DNA of 39,363 bases, from contig PGZD01000018.1 of NCBI GenBank assembly GCA_002843155.1, forward strand, positions 1-39,363. Reading direction: 5' to 3'. Position 1 is the first letter of the stretch; each line of letters starts with the position of its first letter. Made by a program: the position numbers and the translations under genes. This document shows positions 1 through 12,488 of this stretch, piece by piece. Source of the DNA: Gammaproteobacteria bacterium HGW-Gammaproteobacteria-3 (GTDB lineage Bacteria; Pseudomonadota; Gammaproteobacteria; Methylococcales; Methylomonadaceae). The notes beneath the pieces are model-generated. The model was not told where the DNA came from. It was given only the letters and a program-made list of their open reading frames with translations, and did not search any database.

Positions 1-99
1 ATCAACCATTTCGGCGAATCCGCCCCGGCCGGACAATTGTTCAAAGAGTTTGGCTTCACGGTTGAAAATGTCATTAAGCATGTAGAAGCTGTACTTTAA
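1..99 (+). CDS. tkt: Transketolase, C-terminal end (partial)
   Basis: The window opens in frame inside a gene whose last 32 codons read [14 protein letters not shown]... and end in VEAVL before TAA at 97-99. This is the conserved C-terminal tail of transketolase, the thiamine-diphosphate enzyme that moves two-carbon units in the non-oxidative pentose phosphate and Calvin cycles. The HFGESAP block is characteristic of the family. Everything upstream is missing, so catalytic residues cannot be checked. An IS66-like mini-element begins eight bases after the stop codon. Confidence 0.9.
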
Positions 100-241: not shown

Positions 242-1516
242 GTGAAAAAAAATAATTTAATAAGCGGTTTATTTGGAGAGTTGACACAACTGTTCGACAA
301 GCCGCCTGCCATCATTACGCCCGAAGTTCAGCACGAATCTTTGCCGGCTTCTACTGACAGCCGTGAACTTACAGGAGTGGCGAAATATATCAATACTTTG
401 CCGGTCATTACCGGCGTTGCCCGGTATTTGAAAAAACAGGATCCAAGCCCTGCAACCGGAGTATCGAAATACGTGGCCAAACGCGTTTTGCTGGCAGAAG
501 AAGTTGTGCCGGTTACAGGAGTAAGTCGCTATGTAGCCCATAAAGAGCAGGTTGCTAAAACCGGTCCTGCTATCACTAGCGTTTCAAAATACACGGCAAA
601 ACAAATTTTGACGCCAAGAAAAAGAACGGTCATTACCGGCGTCGGCAAATATCTGGCAAAACAGCAATTGGCTGCCAAGCAGGCGGAACCGGCCAGTGGC
701 GTCGCCAAATATTTACATGAACAGACGGTAGCAGCCAAAAAAGCGGCAGCCGCTGAAATAGTCGCGCGATTTATTGAAGCCGAAGCCCGCGCCTTGCAAG
801 AAAAAACGGTGGCGGACGCCATCAAAGCACAAGAATTAACGGCCAAACAGAGCGAAATCATGACCGAAACAGATACCGGCACAGGTGTATCCAGATATTT
901 ATCCCATCAGGCGGCATCGGGCAAAAGCCGCCCCGGCGTTACCGGTGTGGCAAAATATATTGTCAAGCAAATTCTGGCCGAACGGGCAAAACCCGTCCCG
1001 ACAAGCGTTGGCAAATATCTCGCCCGTCAAAATGCCGCCGAAAAACTGAAACCGGCAGCCTCTGGCGTGGAGCGCTATCTGGCCAAACAACGCATCCATC
1101 CAAGAATCGCAGCAGTGACAACGGGTGTCGATAAATATCTGAAAAAACAGGCGCTGGCCGCAAATGATCAACCGGCACCTAGCGGGGTTGCAAAATATAT
1201 TGCAAAACACGCCTTTACCACCCGAAAAATACCGGATTTGCCGAAGCCGGAAAAAAGTCTCGAAGGCGAATTCATATCGGCCCGCGATGCAGCCACAGCA
1301 CTTCCGATAGGCCAGGAAGAGACTCAAAACATCATTGCCACGGTCGAGCCGGTCACAGGTGTCGCCCGCTATCTGGCTAGAACCGTAGCACCTGAAAACA
1401 CGTCGGAAGCGGCCTCTTTGACCGGTGTCGAGAAGTACATTGTAAGCCTTGATGCAGCCCCCTCGGAACCGGTTGCGTTATCCGGCGTTGAGAAATATCT
1501 GCGCAAATACGGTTAA
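242..1516 (+). CDS. Sixteen-motif TGVxKY repeat protein, function unknown
   Basis: A 424-residue protein starting at GTG 242, with a Shine-Dalgarno-like CAGAGG at 226-231. I do not recognise its function. From residue 44 to the C-terminus it carries sixteen copies of [TS][GS]Vx[KR]Y, usually followed by [LIV]x[KR]Q. In the main blocks the motif recurs every 20 residues, so the DNA has a 60-bp period. Two longer spacers break the array, an Ala/Glu/Lys-rich probably helical stretch near residues 165-220 and another near 335-375. The first 43 residues (start MKKNNLISGLFGELTQLF) could be an amphipathic head. There is no signal peptide, membrane segment or enzyme motif. The regular basic short motif suggests a flexible multivalent scaffold or linker, which is inference. 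It sits downstream of transketolase but is separated from it by the mini-element. Confidence 0.85.
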   Translation: MKKNNLISGLFGELTQLFDKPPAIITPEVQHESLPASTDSRELTGVAKYINTLPVITGVARYLKKQDPSPATGVSKYVAKRVLLAEEVVPVTGVSRYVAHKEQVAKTGPAITSVSKYTAKQILTPRKRTVITGVGKYLAKQQLAAKQAEPASGVAKYLHEQTVAAKKAAAAEIVARFIEAEARALQEKTVADAIKAQELTAKQSEIMTETDTGTGVSRYLSHQAASGKSRPGVTGVAKYIVKQILAERAKPVPTSVGKYLARQNAAEKLKPAASGVERYLAKQRIHPRIAAVTTGVDKYLKKQALAANDQPAPSGVAKYIAKHAFTTRKIPDLPKPEKSLEGEFISARDAATALPIGQEETQNIIATVEPVTGVARYLARTVAPENTSEAASLTGVEKYIVSLDAAPSEPVALSGVEKYLRKYG

Positions 1517-10488: not shown

Positions 10489-10788
10489 ATGAACAAAACT
10501 AAACTTATTGCTTCGTTAGGCGGCGCGGTCGCTGTTTCTTTGTTGGCCGCCCCTATGGCCCAAGCTACCGAAAATCCTTTTGCCATGCAAAAAGTAAGCA
10601 CCGCAACGCAACTGGCGGAAGCCGGAAGCAAAGGCAGCGAGGGCAAATGCAGCGACGGCAAATGCGGCGATAAAATGAAAGAAGGCGCTTGCAGCGGCAA
10701 AATGAAAGAGGGCGCTTGCAGCGGCAAAATGGAAGAAGGCGCTTGCAGCGGTAAAATGAAAGAAGGCGGCTGCAGCGGCGCCAAATAA
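10489..10788 (+). CDS. hvfA: Exported Cys-rich repeat peptide, HvfA/bufferin-like RiPP precursor
   Basis: A 99-residue protein with a clear Sec signal peptide (MNKTKLIASLGGAVAVSLLA..., likely cleaved after AQA at residue 26). The mature C-terminal half is low complexity with six cysteines in EGKC, DGKCG, EGAC (three times) and EGGC contexts. Four 9-residue units KMxEGxCSG are encoded by tandem 27-bp repeats at 10672-10779. Small exported EGKCG-type peptides next to DUF692 and DUF2063 genes are precursors of modified copper-binding RiPPs (HvfA, bufferins). In characterised members an MNIO enzyme converts the cysteines to oxazolone/thioamide or thiooxazole groups. The two downstream genes encode exactly those partners. 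A role in buffering metal in the periplasm is inferred. Confidence 0.85.
   Translation: MNKTKLIASLGGAVAVSLLAAPMAQATENPFAMQKVSTATQLAEAGSKGSEGKCSDGKCGDKMKEGACSGKMKEGACSGKMEEGACSGKMKEGGCSGAK
10672..10779 (+). repeat. Four tandem 27-bp repeats inside the peptide gene
   Basis: Units start at 10672, 10699, 10726 and 10753. They encode KMKEGACSG, KMKEGACSG, KMEEGACSG and KMKEGGCSG. The near identity at DNA level suggests recent expansion, and the number of modifiable cysteines could vary between strains by slippage. Confidence 0.85.
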
Positions 10789-10808
10789 CGTCAACAAAGG
10801 CTTCCGTC

Positions 10809-11657
10809 ATGAACAGACCGCAACTGGACGGAGCCGGACTGGGCCTTCGGCGGGAGCACATGCTTCCGTTGATGGCCGAAGTTCCGGACGCCATCGATTT
10901 TTTTGAAATATCACCGGAAAACTATATCGATCTGGGCGGTAAAAAAGCCCGCGATTTTCGCTGGTTTACCGAACGCTTCCCTTTTGTCGCGCACGGTCTG
11001 TCACTTTCCATCGGCGCTCCCGATCCGTTAGATGAAGCTTTTTTGCTGCGCATCAAAGATTTTATGACCGAACACCAAATCCGGCTTTATACCGAGCATT
11101 TAAGTTATTGCACGGGGCAAGGCCATTTGTACGATCTTTTTCCGATGCCTTTTACCGAAGAAGCAGTACACTATGTCGCCGCCCGCATCCGGCGCGCGCA
11201 GGACATCCTCGAACGCCATATCGCGATTGAAAACGCCTCATACTACGCCGCCTCACCCATCTCCGACCTCGACGAGCTGGATTTTATCCGCGCCGTCATC
11301 GAAGAAGCCGACTGCTGGCTGCATCTGGATGTCAATAACATCTATGTCAACAGTGTCAATCACCACTACGATGCCGAACAGTTTTTACGGGGCCTGCCGG
11401 GTGAGCGCATCGTTTATTGCCATGTCGCCGGTCACGATCATGACCGCCCCGATCTGATCATCGACAGTCACGGGCAGCCGGTTATCGATCCGGTCTGGCA
11501 GCTTTTGGAAACAGCCTATGAACAGTTCGGCCTGTTCCCGACGCTGCTGGAAAGGGATTTCAATATTCCGCCGTTGGCCGAGCTGGTTAAAGAAGTCGAG
11601 CATATTGCCGACCTACAAGAGCAATGGCTCGCCCGCAACCTGAAAAAAAGCGCTTAA
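10809..11657 (+). CDS. hvfB: MNIO-family (DUF692) peptide-modifying enzyme, HvfB/BufB-like
   Basis: A 282-residue TIM-barrel protein of the DUF692 family, now known as multinuclear non-heme iron-dependent oxidative (MNIO) enzymes. Family landmarks include GAGLGLRREHM, FFEISPENYI, the histidines of VAHGLSLSIG and EHLSYCTG, AIENASYY, LHLDVNNIYVNSVNH, YCHVAGHDHD and LLERDFNIPP, which supply the His/Asp/Asn/Glu iron ligands. MNIOs use oxygen and a mixed-valence iron centre to rearrange cysteines in RiPP precursors. The substrate is presumably the Cys-rich peptide encoded 20 bp upstream, with the DUF2063 partner 12 bp downstream. An AAAGG ribosome-binding site precedes ATG 10809. Length is typical. 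Confidence 0.93.
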   Translation: MNRPQLDGAGLGLRREHMLPLMAEVPDAIDFFEISPENYIDLGGKKARDFRWFTERFPFVAHGLSLSIGAPDPLDEAFLLRIKDFMTEHQIRLYTEHLSYCTGQGHLYDLFPMPFTEEAVHYVAARIRRAQDILERHIAIENASYYAASPISDLDELDFIRAVIEEADCWLHLDVNNIYVNSVNHHYDAEQFLRGLPGERIVYCHVAGHDHDRPDLIIDSHGQPVIDPVWQLLETAYEQFGLFPTLLERDFNIPPLAELVKEVEHIADLQEQWLARNLKKSA

Positions 11658-11669
11658 CGAGAGCCTCCC

Positions 11670-12488
11670 ATGTCCCAAGCCACAGCGACGCCGTCAGCCA
11701 ACGATCCCTTACCGGCCTTTCAGGCCTACCAGCAGCAATTTATCGATTATGTGCGCGACCCGGCGCACCATGCGGATGTGCCGGATACCTTGCCGCCTTC
11801 GATCGAGGTTTATGCCCGGCTTCTGCACAATAAAATCGACGCCAGCCTGCGCCTCTGTTTTCCGGTCAGCCATGAGCTATTGGGCGATACCTGCTGGCGG
11901 CAACTGGTGCAATCCTTCATCAAACATCATCACTGTCAATCGCCGCTATACCGGGAAATTCCGGACGAATTTATCGCTTATCTGCTACAGGGCCGCCCAC
12001 CGTTGACAGTGCCGGATTTTTTGACCGACCTGGCGCATTATGAATGGATGGAACTGGTTCTGGAAACGGCACTGCCCGCCTATTCCGATGAAATTTTGCC
12101 GATTCAAGACAATCTTTTGACCCGCATCCCGGCACCCAACCCGGTACTGCACCTTTTACGTTACCGTTATCCGGTATCCGACATCACACCTTCAGACGAC
12201 TACTGGAAATCCTGGCAAAACCCTACTGCCCCATACCCTCATGAAAGTATCATTCTGGCAGGACTTCGCGGCCTCGACGACCGCGCCCAGTTCATCCAGA
12301 TCAATACCGTAACCGCACGCCTAACCGAAATTCTGCAAGAGCGCTTACATACCGGCGAACAGGCATTGCTGCAATTGGCCGCTGAAATGCATTACAGCGA
12401 CCCTAAAACCATCCTGCCGTTCGGTTCCGATATTCTGGCGCAATTGGCGGCACAGCAGGTCATTATCGGTATATTGAAAGATTCCTGA
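11670..12488 (+). CDS. hvfC: DUF2063 peptide-recognition partner, HvfC/BufC-like
   Basis: A 272-residue protein. The N-terminal ~100 residues are the DUF2063 domain: FQAYQQQFIDYVRDP, then IEVYARLLHNKIDASLRLCFPVSHELLGD, with LPDFL-like and WMELVLETAL segments after it. In characterised systems this protein binds the precursor peptide and delivers it to the MNIO enzyme. It is the third gene of the operon. A DoxX-type fourth gene, often present in such clusters, is absent: the next gene is convergent. Confidence 0.9.
   Translation: MSQATATPSANDPLPAFQAYQQQFIDYVRDPAHHADVPDTLPPSIEVYARLLHNKIDASLRLCFPVSHELLGDTCWRQLVQSFIKHHHCQSPLYREIPDEFIAYLLQGRPPLTVPDFLTDLAHYEWMELVLETALPAYSDEILPIQDNLLTRIPAPNPVLHLLRYRYPVSDITPSDDYWKSWQNPTAPYPHESIILAGLRGLDDRAQFIQINTVTARLTEILQERLHTGEQALLQLAAEMHYSDPKTILPFGSDILAQLAAQQVIIGILKDS

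Follow-up and report, generated by a model that had tools for sequence, protein, structure and literature searches.

The window, by which we mean the whole stretch of 39,363 nucleotides analyzed here, is the start of a contig (C76) of Gammaproteobacteria bacterium HGW-Gammaproteobacteria-3. It opens with the end of a transketolase gene followed by a gene, here called B, that encodes many copies of one short motif. The features of this region are given below.

1 to 99, forward strand: 3' end of a transketolase gene, comprising its final 32 codons and the stop; the contig starts here, and the segment matches the C-terminus of the transketolase of relatives.
242 to 1516, forward strand: gene B, putative repeat scaffold; GTG start, 424 amino acids, 16 motifs, pI 9.7, homologues found.
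254 to 286, forward strand: predicted N-terminal amphipathic helix of B, residues 5-15, a putative membrane anchor (AlphaFold2 at low confidence, hydrophobic moment).
371 to 712, forward strand: motif block 1, seven motifs, residues 44-157 (motif scan).
701 to 865, forward strand: long predicted helix, residues 154-208, which begins in motif 7 and heads toward block 2 (AlphaFold2).
881 to 1198, forward strand: motif block 2, six motifs at an exact 20-residue spacing, residues 214-319 (motif scan).
1259 to 1282, forward strand: single-copy LEGEFISA segment, residues 340-347; the consensus of aligned homologues is LEGEFIPA, and some rows lack it.
1355 to 1498, forward strand: motif block 3, three motifs, residues 372-419, the last one near the C-terminus (motif scan).

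The motif, [TS][GS]Vx[KR]Y, occurs 16 times in B, as the first-pass annotation had claimed and our scan confirmed, at residues 44, 57, 72, 92, 112, 132, 152, 214, 234, 254, 274, 294, 314, 372, 394, and 414. In 20,000 shuffles of the same composition, the mean count was 0.0036 and never exceeded one. The valine and tyrosine are constant in all 16 copies, the first position is threonine (12) or serine (4), and the residue following the tyrosine is leucine (9), isoleucine (4), valine (2), or threonine (1). Successive motifs are 13, 15, 20 (four times), 62, 20 (five times), 58, 22, and 20 residues apart, which groups them into the three blocks of seven, six, and three.

No Pfam-A or NCBIfam model reached its cut-off with B, in agreement with the earlier view that it holds no known enzyme domain or family. 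A match between the motif and a known structural repeat had been named as counting against the proposed scaffold; no structural repeat of Pfam (TPR, ankyrin, HEAT, and others) matched over its cut-off, the six Pfam families listed at E values up to 10 all falling below. The best match among PDB sequences had an E value of 1, and no related solved structure was found. On the Pfam, NCBIfam, and PDB results, a known repeat family or enzyme was rejected for B, and Pfam matches to U1snRNP70_N, Zein, and DPC2 were dismissed as composition-driven and below cut-off. Directly 3' of B, positions 1517-1700 contain short inverted repeats seen by eye (for example at about 1530-1549), perhaps REP elements or terminators. 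Further along the window, 10489-12488 encodes a small, secreted-looking protein of Cys/Lys/Gly repeats and then two further genes, which we take to resemble the DUF2282/DUF692 "bufferin" metal-storage type.

An AlphaFold2 model of B, built from a 19-row alignment, has low confidence and no compact fold (mean pLDDT 62, pTM 0.23). Besides a helix at residues 5-15, it has one for each of the 16 motifs (17 in all), and each predicted motif helix begins one or two residues inside its motif with the threonine or serine as N-cap. The long helix at residues 154-208 reaches 10-residue block means of up to pLDDT 95 and holds a degenerate motif (IVARF). The predicted model would fit a string of short, sticky helices. 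At the N-terminus, NLISGLFGELTQLF, the hydrophobic moment is high (0.64) and the helical prediction is of low confidence, and some relatives are strongly hydrophobic there, for example GLFFPAVAGLFFFMKRP. The earlier statement that B has no membrane segment holds for a classical transmembrane helix but is too broad, given this predicted amphipathic helix and its strongly hydrophobic counterparts.

A genome-wide search found matches to B in 42 of 61 genomes (its own and 60 relatives of the order), at 32-49% identity for the main matches and 30-39% for the 18 relatives aligned with the window protein. Because relatives with open frames occur across the same family, B is a real gene. In the 19-row alignment, the valine and tyrosine of most motifs are invariant and the linkers have diverged, and the other conserved element is the LEGEFIPA-like segment, found in most rows. 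The 75 named-record B proteins, from the best 80 of 189 loci, carry 6 to 18 motifs each; among their 673 spacings, 20 is the commonest (117), with 16 (87) and 15 (66) also frequent. The 20-residue period described earlier is exact in block 2 of the window and commonest in relatives, but as a strict period it is not general, and a strict 20-residue lattice was rejected on the spacing distribution of these 75 proteins. The first-pass annotation had raised the coating of a filament and had itself named inconstant motif number and spacing as telling against its proposal; such variation disfavors a regular filament-coating lattice, and does not disfavor a flexible multivalent linker. Its broader suggestion, a multivalent scaffold in which each motif docks a partner, may stand, as it is consistent with the kept motif among diverged linkers, the one predicted helix per motif, and the portability of the motif, which is also present in three other kinds of protein described below (A, C-type proteins, and a ChpA-type kinase).

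In relatives, B lies in an operon of the order hps-phi-tkt-A-B-tal-(fba), that is, the genes of ribulose-monophosphate (RuMP) formaldehyde assimilation. At one such locus (L026, genome G027), NCBIfam identified 3-hexulose-6-phosphate synthase (HPS; TIGR03128, 247.7 bits, cut-off 200) and 6-phospho-3-hexuloisomerase (PHI; TIGR03127, 198.4 bits, cut-off 160), and, also over cut-off, transketolase (TIGR00232) before A-B and then transaldolase and class II fructose-bisphosphate aldolase. We read the neighbors of A in 80 named-record loci, the best 80 of 189, which were chosen for encoding A and not for what lies beside it. Upstream were hps (67), phi (67), and tkt (75); downstream were B (75), tal (77), and fba (56). 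Eight of these best 80 of 189 loci lack tkt or tal, each being interrupted there by a contig end, and B is absent from L117, L121, L136 (contig end), L156, and L164. The transketolase neighbor, once thought perhaps coincidental, is upstream in 75 of these best 80 of 189 loci, and in the other five a contig end comes first, which argues against coincidence. The named loci in this set, again the best 80 of 189, are from Methylobacter, Methylovulum, Methylomicrobium, Crenothrix, Methyloglobulus, Methyloprofundus, Methylomonas, Methylocucumis, and Methylicorpusculum, and the others are from MAGs labeled Methylococcaceae, Methylococcales, Gammaproteobacteria, or bacterium.

Gene A, of about 220 codons, precedes B in most loci read. 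Among 75 named-record pairs (best 80 of 189 loci), the gap between them is 3 bp in 60, 2 bp in seven, 4 bp in three, and 5 bp in one, with 0, 0, -4, and 7 bp in the other four; with a gap of so few bases, A and B are probably translated together. A 23-row alignment of A contains a signal peptide, usually two YPAADFxPKVxYxDxxY repeats, a Ser/Thr-rich stretch, one hydrophobic span, and a basic tail; the signal peptide, the span, and the topology, with periplasmic repeats and a cytoplasmic tail, were judged by eye. The tail carries four motifs in 79 and three in one of the 80 named-record loci (best 80 of 189). Neither A nor B has a known domain over cut-off in Pfam and NCBIfam scans. A and B are a real, conserved, and unnamed two-protein system of RuMP operons, with a putative scaffold role that the genomic context supports.

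Proteins akin to A, or to its repeats, that lack the motif also occur. A-like membrane proteins with an acidic-rich tail that lacks the motif are encoded in G041 (L187, 8030-8653), G055 (L188, 7849-8469), and G044 (L189, 1004-1648), all on the reverse strand. Secreted-looking proteins of 80-105 amino acids consist of A's YPAxxFxPKVIYxD repeats alone and adjoin ABC transporter genes at six loci; the transporter scanned at L178 has an ATPase, a permease, and an NMT1-like binding protein. The window's own genome encodes one as well (L176, 7901-8218, reverse strand), with no transporter seen alongside.

L178, 8910-9155, reverse strand: small A-repeat protein.
L179, 7426-7668, reverse strand: small A-repeat protein.
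L180, 7565-7879, reverse strand: small A-repeat protein.
L181, 8185-8439, reverse strand: small A-repeat protein.
L182, 8075-8353, reverse strand: small A-repeat protein.
L183, 8875-9180, reverse strand: small A-repeat protein.

A and B might instead be regulatory or stabilizing accessories of the RuMP operon. They could act as a chaperone, as an inhibitor that formaldehyde releases from an enzyme, or as a sensor whose ligand is read by A's periplasmic repeats. The trans-membrane appearance of A, its conserved periplasmic repeats, and the recurrence of these repeats in small secreted proteins, at several loci beside an ABC transporter, would suit such a role. The lack of a known domain over cut-off in either protein speaks against it, and 6-18 motif copies fit multivalency better than allosteric control; we regard an accessory role as very improbable.

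A and B stand apart in the window's own assembly. Another contig, C81, opens with a transketolase segment identical to the window's first 99 bp, followed by A (223 amino acids, four motifs) and transaldolase. The identical 99 bp on both contigs suggest that the transketolase region is probably duplicated in this genome, with B after one copy and A-tal after the other, and that the assembly broke in the duplicate. The same pattern appears in G010, where three hps-phi-tkt copies are followed by B, B, and A, respectively. The sole HPS over cut-off in the window's assembly is an HPS-PHI fusion on C130, and the operon hps is absent from the assembly. In Methylococcus capsulatus, RuMP genes around transaldolase are reported to form an identical direct repeat (PMC517821).

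The distribution of the motif follows that of HPS. Among 369 gammaproteobacterial genomes, the A/motif profile (E up to 1e-6) was found in six and HPS over cut-off in the same six (G000, G010, G039, G062, G219, and G421), that is, in 6/6 HPS genomes against 0/363 others (Fisher 3e-13, phylogeny ignored); at most seven candidates for the motif profile and eight for HPS were scored per genome, so that weak matches may be missed. A seventh genome, G310, has an HPS-like match below cut-off and no motif. In this draw, HPS over cut-off is confined to families f1, f4, and f10. Within the order (61 genomes, the window's own and 60 others), HPS is over cut-off in 49, and motif proteins, scored from the B search, the A profile, and a DNA pattern, are present in 44 of these and in 2 of the 12 without HPS. 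One positive (G004) was scored through a C-type protein only, and the motif genes of G039 are broken by frameshifts. The two with a motif but no HPS over cut-off are G007 and G029, the other ten of the 12 having no motif; HPS pieces at contig ends in G029, and an A that ends at a contig end in G007, indicate that hps was probably lost in assembly.

Conversely, HPS can work without the motif, as 5 of 49 HPS genomes are motif-less: G041, G047, G055, G058, and G057, with 0, 0, 0, 2 (unrelated-looking single), and 0 DNA-pattern matches, respectively. The A profile alone matches 51 of 61 genomes of the order, a count raised by the A-like proteins with motif-less tails that it also finds; such tails were read in the sequences of G041, G055, and G044. 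The G058 match covers positions 4-156 of 228, and that in G047 is weaker. In an HPS tree of 63 rows, from which one partial match of 163 amino acids was dropped, the motif-less f6 copies form one clade (100/99), the f10 copies another (100/98), and 37 Methylococcales rows a third (91/93), with the fusion and the G057 copy unplaced. The tree does not separate co-evolution from shared descent. The association between HPS and the motif is not phylogenetically independent and could go back to one ancient event in which the entire locus was inherited or transferred.

Three of the six class-level genomes with HPS and the motif belong to f10, a family outside the order that is probably Methylophagaceae, as inferred from its class and RuMP genes. 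Its motif protein, whose profile matches 54 of 57 f10 genomes, is 97-187 amino acids long. Its N-terminus is amphipathic (GFFSSICGLLKGIF is an example), and its four to seven motifs are spaced by about 17 residues, with glutamine sometimes in the K/R position. The RuMP cluster reads hps1-[motif protein]-tal-hps2-phi; of ten clusters read, nine have the motif gene between hps and tal, and the remaining one (G479, L241) differs in gene order and has no more than a 60-amino-acid frame with a motif match. Flanking genes of the f10 cluster for DhaK, a HAD-IIA phosphatase, and a DhaL-like protein are also found in 14, 14, and 12 of the 41 first-read Methylococcales loci (DhaK and the phosphatase were identified by a scan of a Methylococcales locus). 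The shared neighbors suggest a locus passed on as one unit, by inheritance or by transfer, and hence not two independent inventions.

The two families together help to narrow the choice of partner. At L028, B and A have pI values of 9.7 and 9.2 against 5.0-5.9 for their five enzymes, and at the f10 locus L236 the motif protein has 9.2 against 4.5-5.0, such that, by pI at one locus per family, the charge of the scaffold is opposite to that of the candidate client enzymes. The window genome is similar on the scaffold side (B 9.7, own A 9.6). Transketolase was not chosen as a single obvious partner, being unseen in the ten f10 clusters read, nor was fructose-bisphosphate aldolase, which was not found in 24 of the 80 named-record loci (best 80 of 189; partly contig ends). 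These two absences leave HPS, or else PHI or transaldolase, as the first candidate. HPS and PHI are common to nearly all arrangements, which narrows the choice of partner and does not prove it.

The motif helices may also bind one another. By this alternative, which we find quite improbable, A and B would form a membrane-lining polymer that shapes or stabilizes internal membranes, with the enzyme genes adjacent for co-expression only. A and B have one motif in common, both have membrane-directed parts (A by eye), and the predicted short helices could pair. The model has no packed fold (that pTM of 0.23), though a single-chain model cannot exclude pairing, and the second family, whose identity is inferred and which presumably has no internal membranes, retains the gene in its RuMP cluster. 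Gene order bears on this too. Four f6 genomes without the motif have hps-phi with no tkt or tal within 18 kb, and G057 has hps alone; that the four with hps-phi away from tkt and tal have no motif speaks against an independent membrane role. G060 speaks for it, as A there precedes hps-phi with no tkt or tal nearby. In G046, hps-phi-tkt-tal stand together with a short A-like gene of two motifs between tkt and tal. Some motif genes stand isolated: G046 has a second A of this kind, G060 encodes a small B-like protein (L058), and the C-type genes belong here too.

The motif is concentrated in the A-B system without being confined to it. A degenerate DNA pattern for the motif plus a hydrophobic residue is restrictive, catching 5 of B's 16 motifs and missing 11. 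Of its 95 matches across ten genomes, 82 fall within A, B, or broken copies of them, 10 within C-type genes, and 2 within the small B-like gene of G060, which leaves 1 elsewhere. In the window's genome, 9/9 matches lie within A (4) or B (5). With the pattern reversed as a control, the ten genomes yielded 39 matches; G010 accounts for 27, so the control is not clean for that genome.

The C-type proteins begin in most cases with an MA(K)NLL-like N-terminus, carry several motifs, and end in a metal-binding-looking CQAxTxKGTQC...C..H stretch. Four were scanned, with no Pfam match over cut-off (PF25195, DPC2, gave 16.7 and 17.7 bits with two of them, cut-off 70), and no RuMP genes were seen adjoining them at the loci read. 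A structure prediction of low confidence (mean pLDDT 51) has the same motif helices and a small beta element. A Methylococcales transaldolase (L022, 1297-2283) begins with MAKNLLEQL, resembling the C-type N-termini MAKNLLERF and MANLLEKL (L059, L247), possibly by chance.

L068, 1095-1895, reverse strand: C-type protein.
L063, 1381-2154: C-type protein.
L047, 9441-10268: C-type protein.
L059, 9147-10484, reverse strand: C-type protein.
L247, 2734-3519, reverse strand: C-type protein.

A further group of motif proteins is found in f10, where open frames of at least 700 amino acids hold motif matches in 34 of 57 genomes (counted among the matches listed). The one complete example scanned, from L232, has three Hpt stretches, HATPase_c, CheW, and a receiver and is thus a ChpA-type kinase; its six motif copies, at residues 819-930, come after an Hpt domain (629-718) and before the HATPase domain. 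Four ChpA-type loci are preceded by receiver, CheW-like, and MCP-like genes (MCP-like scanned in L232, CheW-like and receiver in L233). These f10 proteins carry three to eight TGV/TSVxRYI-like motifs, L232 and part of L209 having been scanned for domains.

L232, 3789-9803: ChpA-type motif protein.
L233, 4741-10458: ChpA-type motif protein.
L234, 4476-10175: ChpA-type motif protein.
L235, 2600-8206: ChpA-type motif protein.
L209, 1-2549: Hpt-containing motif protein of this type.

The ChpA motif is the strongest reason to consider a different common partner. As ChpA-type kinases, C-type proteins, and the B-like protein of G060 carry it, the motif is not confined to RuMP loci, and its partner may be something else. 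It might bind a general positioning or hub protein, such as a polar or membrane landmark, with A, B, the C-type proteins, and ChpA as cargo adaptors; the RuMP operon would then use the hub merely to place its enzymes or couple them to chemosensing. The large f10 frames, with their scanned ChpA-type kinase, and the chemosensory-type genes ahead of the four loci fit such a hub. The concentration of pattern matches in A and B (82 of 95 overall and all nine in the window's genome) does not, no such protein was identified, and motif presence tracks HPS, and we therefore regard a hub as unlikely.

On balance, and with modest confidence, we favor B as a flexible, basic, multivalent, and membrane-tethered scaffold for RuMP enzymes that works with A as a membrane-spanning adaptor. 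Each motif would be a short N-capped helix, with the threonine or serine as the cap and the valine and Tyr-Leu on one face. Each such helix may dock at a single site on one of the operon's enzymes, most probably HPS or a different one that nearly all arrangements have in common (PHI or transaldolase). With its many motifs per chain, B would cross-link these enzymes, which are oligomeric and acidic, so that they form a cluster or condensate. The multivalency and basic charge of the chain, the oligomeric and acidic nature of the enzymes, their common operon, and the membrane anchors all suggest an enzyme cluster tethered to the membrane, and A and the N-terminal helix of B may hold it on the cytoplasmic face. 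Formaldehyde, made from methanol on the opposite, periplasmic side, might then be trapped before it spreads. Several observations weigh against this reading: the phylogenetic dependence of the HPS association, the five HPS genomes that lack the motif, the uneven motif number and spacing, the motif copies outside RuMP loci, the restrictive DNA pattern with its unclean control, and, in the window's assembly, the separation of A from B and the HPS-PHI fusion as the sole HPS over cut-off.

A bolder version, possible though doubtful, is that RuMP methanotrophs, and probably Methylophaga, build a membrane-bound condensate for formaldehyde assimilation, a "RuMP pyrenoid", in which A bridges the membrane and the motif plugs a Pil-Chp kinase into the assembly. 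The periplasmic YPAxDFxPKVxYxD repeats of A would meet the methanol-oxidizing side, its TGVxKYL tail would meet an HPS cluster built by B, and formaldehyde would be handed over at its point of entry. In Methylophaga-like bacteria, a Pil-Chp chemosensory kinase joined through the motif might link movement to C1 metabolism.

To our knowledge, methylotrophy research has yet to explain how periplasmic formaldehyde gets to cytoplasmic HPS while sparing the cell its toxicity, and a dedicated scaffold, if real, would make this transfer testable. Synthetic methylotrophy has, as far as we know, transplanted HPS and PHI without such a scaffold partner, for which A and B might serve as a natural module. 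One report gives free formaldehyde as the presumed HPS substrate (PMC517821). No description of the A/B motif system was found in the open-access PMC literature. Methylomonas sp. DH-1 is reported to express hps and phi very highly, along with 85 very highly expressed hypothetical genes, and the portion of that report at hand does not name A or B (PMC6373157). RuMP enzymes and many hypothetical proteins are likewise reported for Methylophaga thiooxydans, with the motif protein not named in the portion available (PMC6548844).

Several copies of a short conserved motif among variable linkers are a feature of multivalent enzyme-linker scaffolds, B has 16 such copies, and we infer a mode of action for B similar to that of the Rubisco linkers EPYC1, CsoS2, and PYCO1. 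No homology to these emerged through the Pfam, NCBIfam, and PDB libraries (as distinct from pairwise comparison with each named protein); together with the other pathway and the trans-membrane partner, this means that membership in the Rubisco-linker families is not shown. CsoS2 is encoded together with its pathway. It is the disordered linker of the alpha-carboxysome in bacterial carbon assimilation, in the account available to us (PMC10484944). A and B differ from it in lacking a Pfam or NCBIfam match over cut-off, in the lack of a shell-protein gene among the ten proteins scanned at one RuMP locus, and in having the trans-membrane adaptor A. The encapsulation peptides of bacterial microcompartments, short helical domains on disordered linkers, are reported, in the part of the source available, to drive condensation (PMC12339742). 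B differs from these in its many copies per chain, and no fusion to an operon enzyme was noticed at the loci read, nor a shell gene among the ten scanned. Also close in mode of action may be the disordered linkers that condense Rubisco, of the EPYC1, CsLinker, and PYCO1 kind, as described in the portions of the papers at hand (PMC11570498, PMC6265248, PMC10288592). Like EPYC1, Chlorella CsLinker, and diatom PYCO1, B has repeated short motifs, putative stickers on a chain predicted to be flexible, and would serve one carbon-assimilation enzyme system; unlike them, it is bacterial, its putative clients are RuMP enzymes instead of Rubisco, and its trans-membrane partner bears the same motif. If our reading is true, Rubisco-style linkers would extend to a second, unrelated carbon-assimilation pathway.
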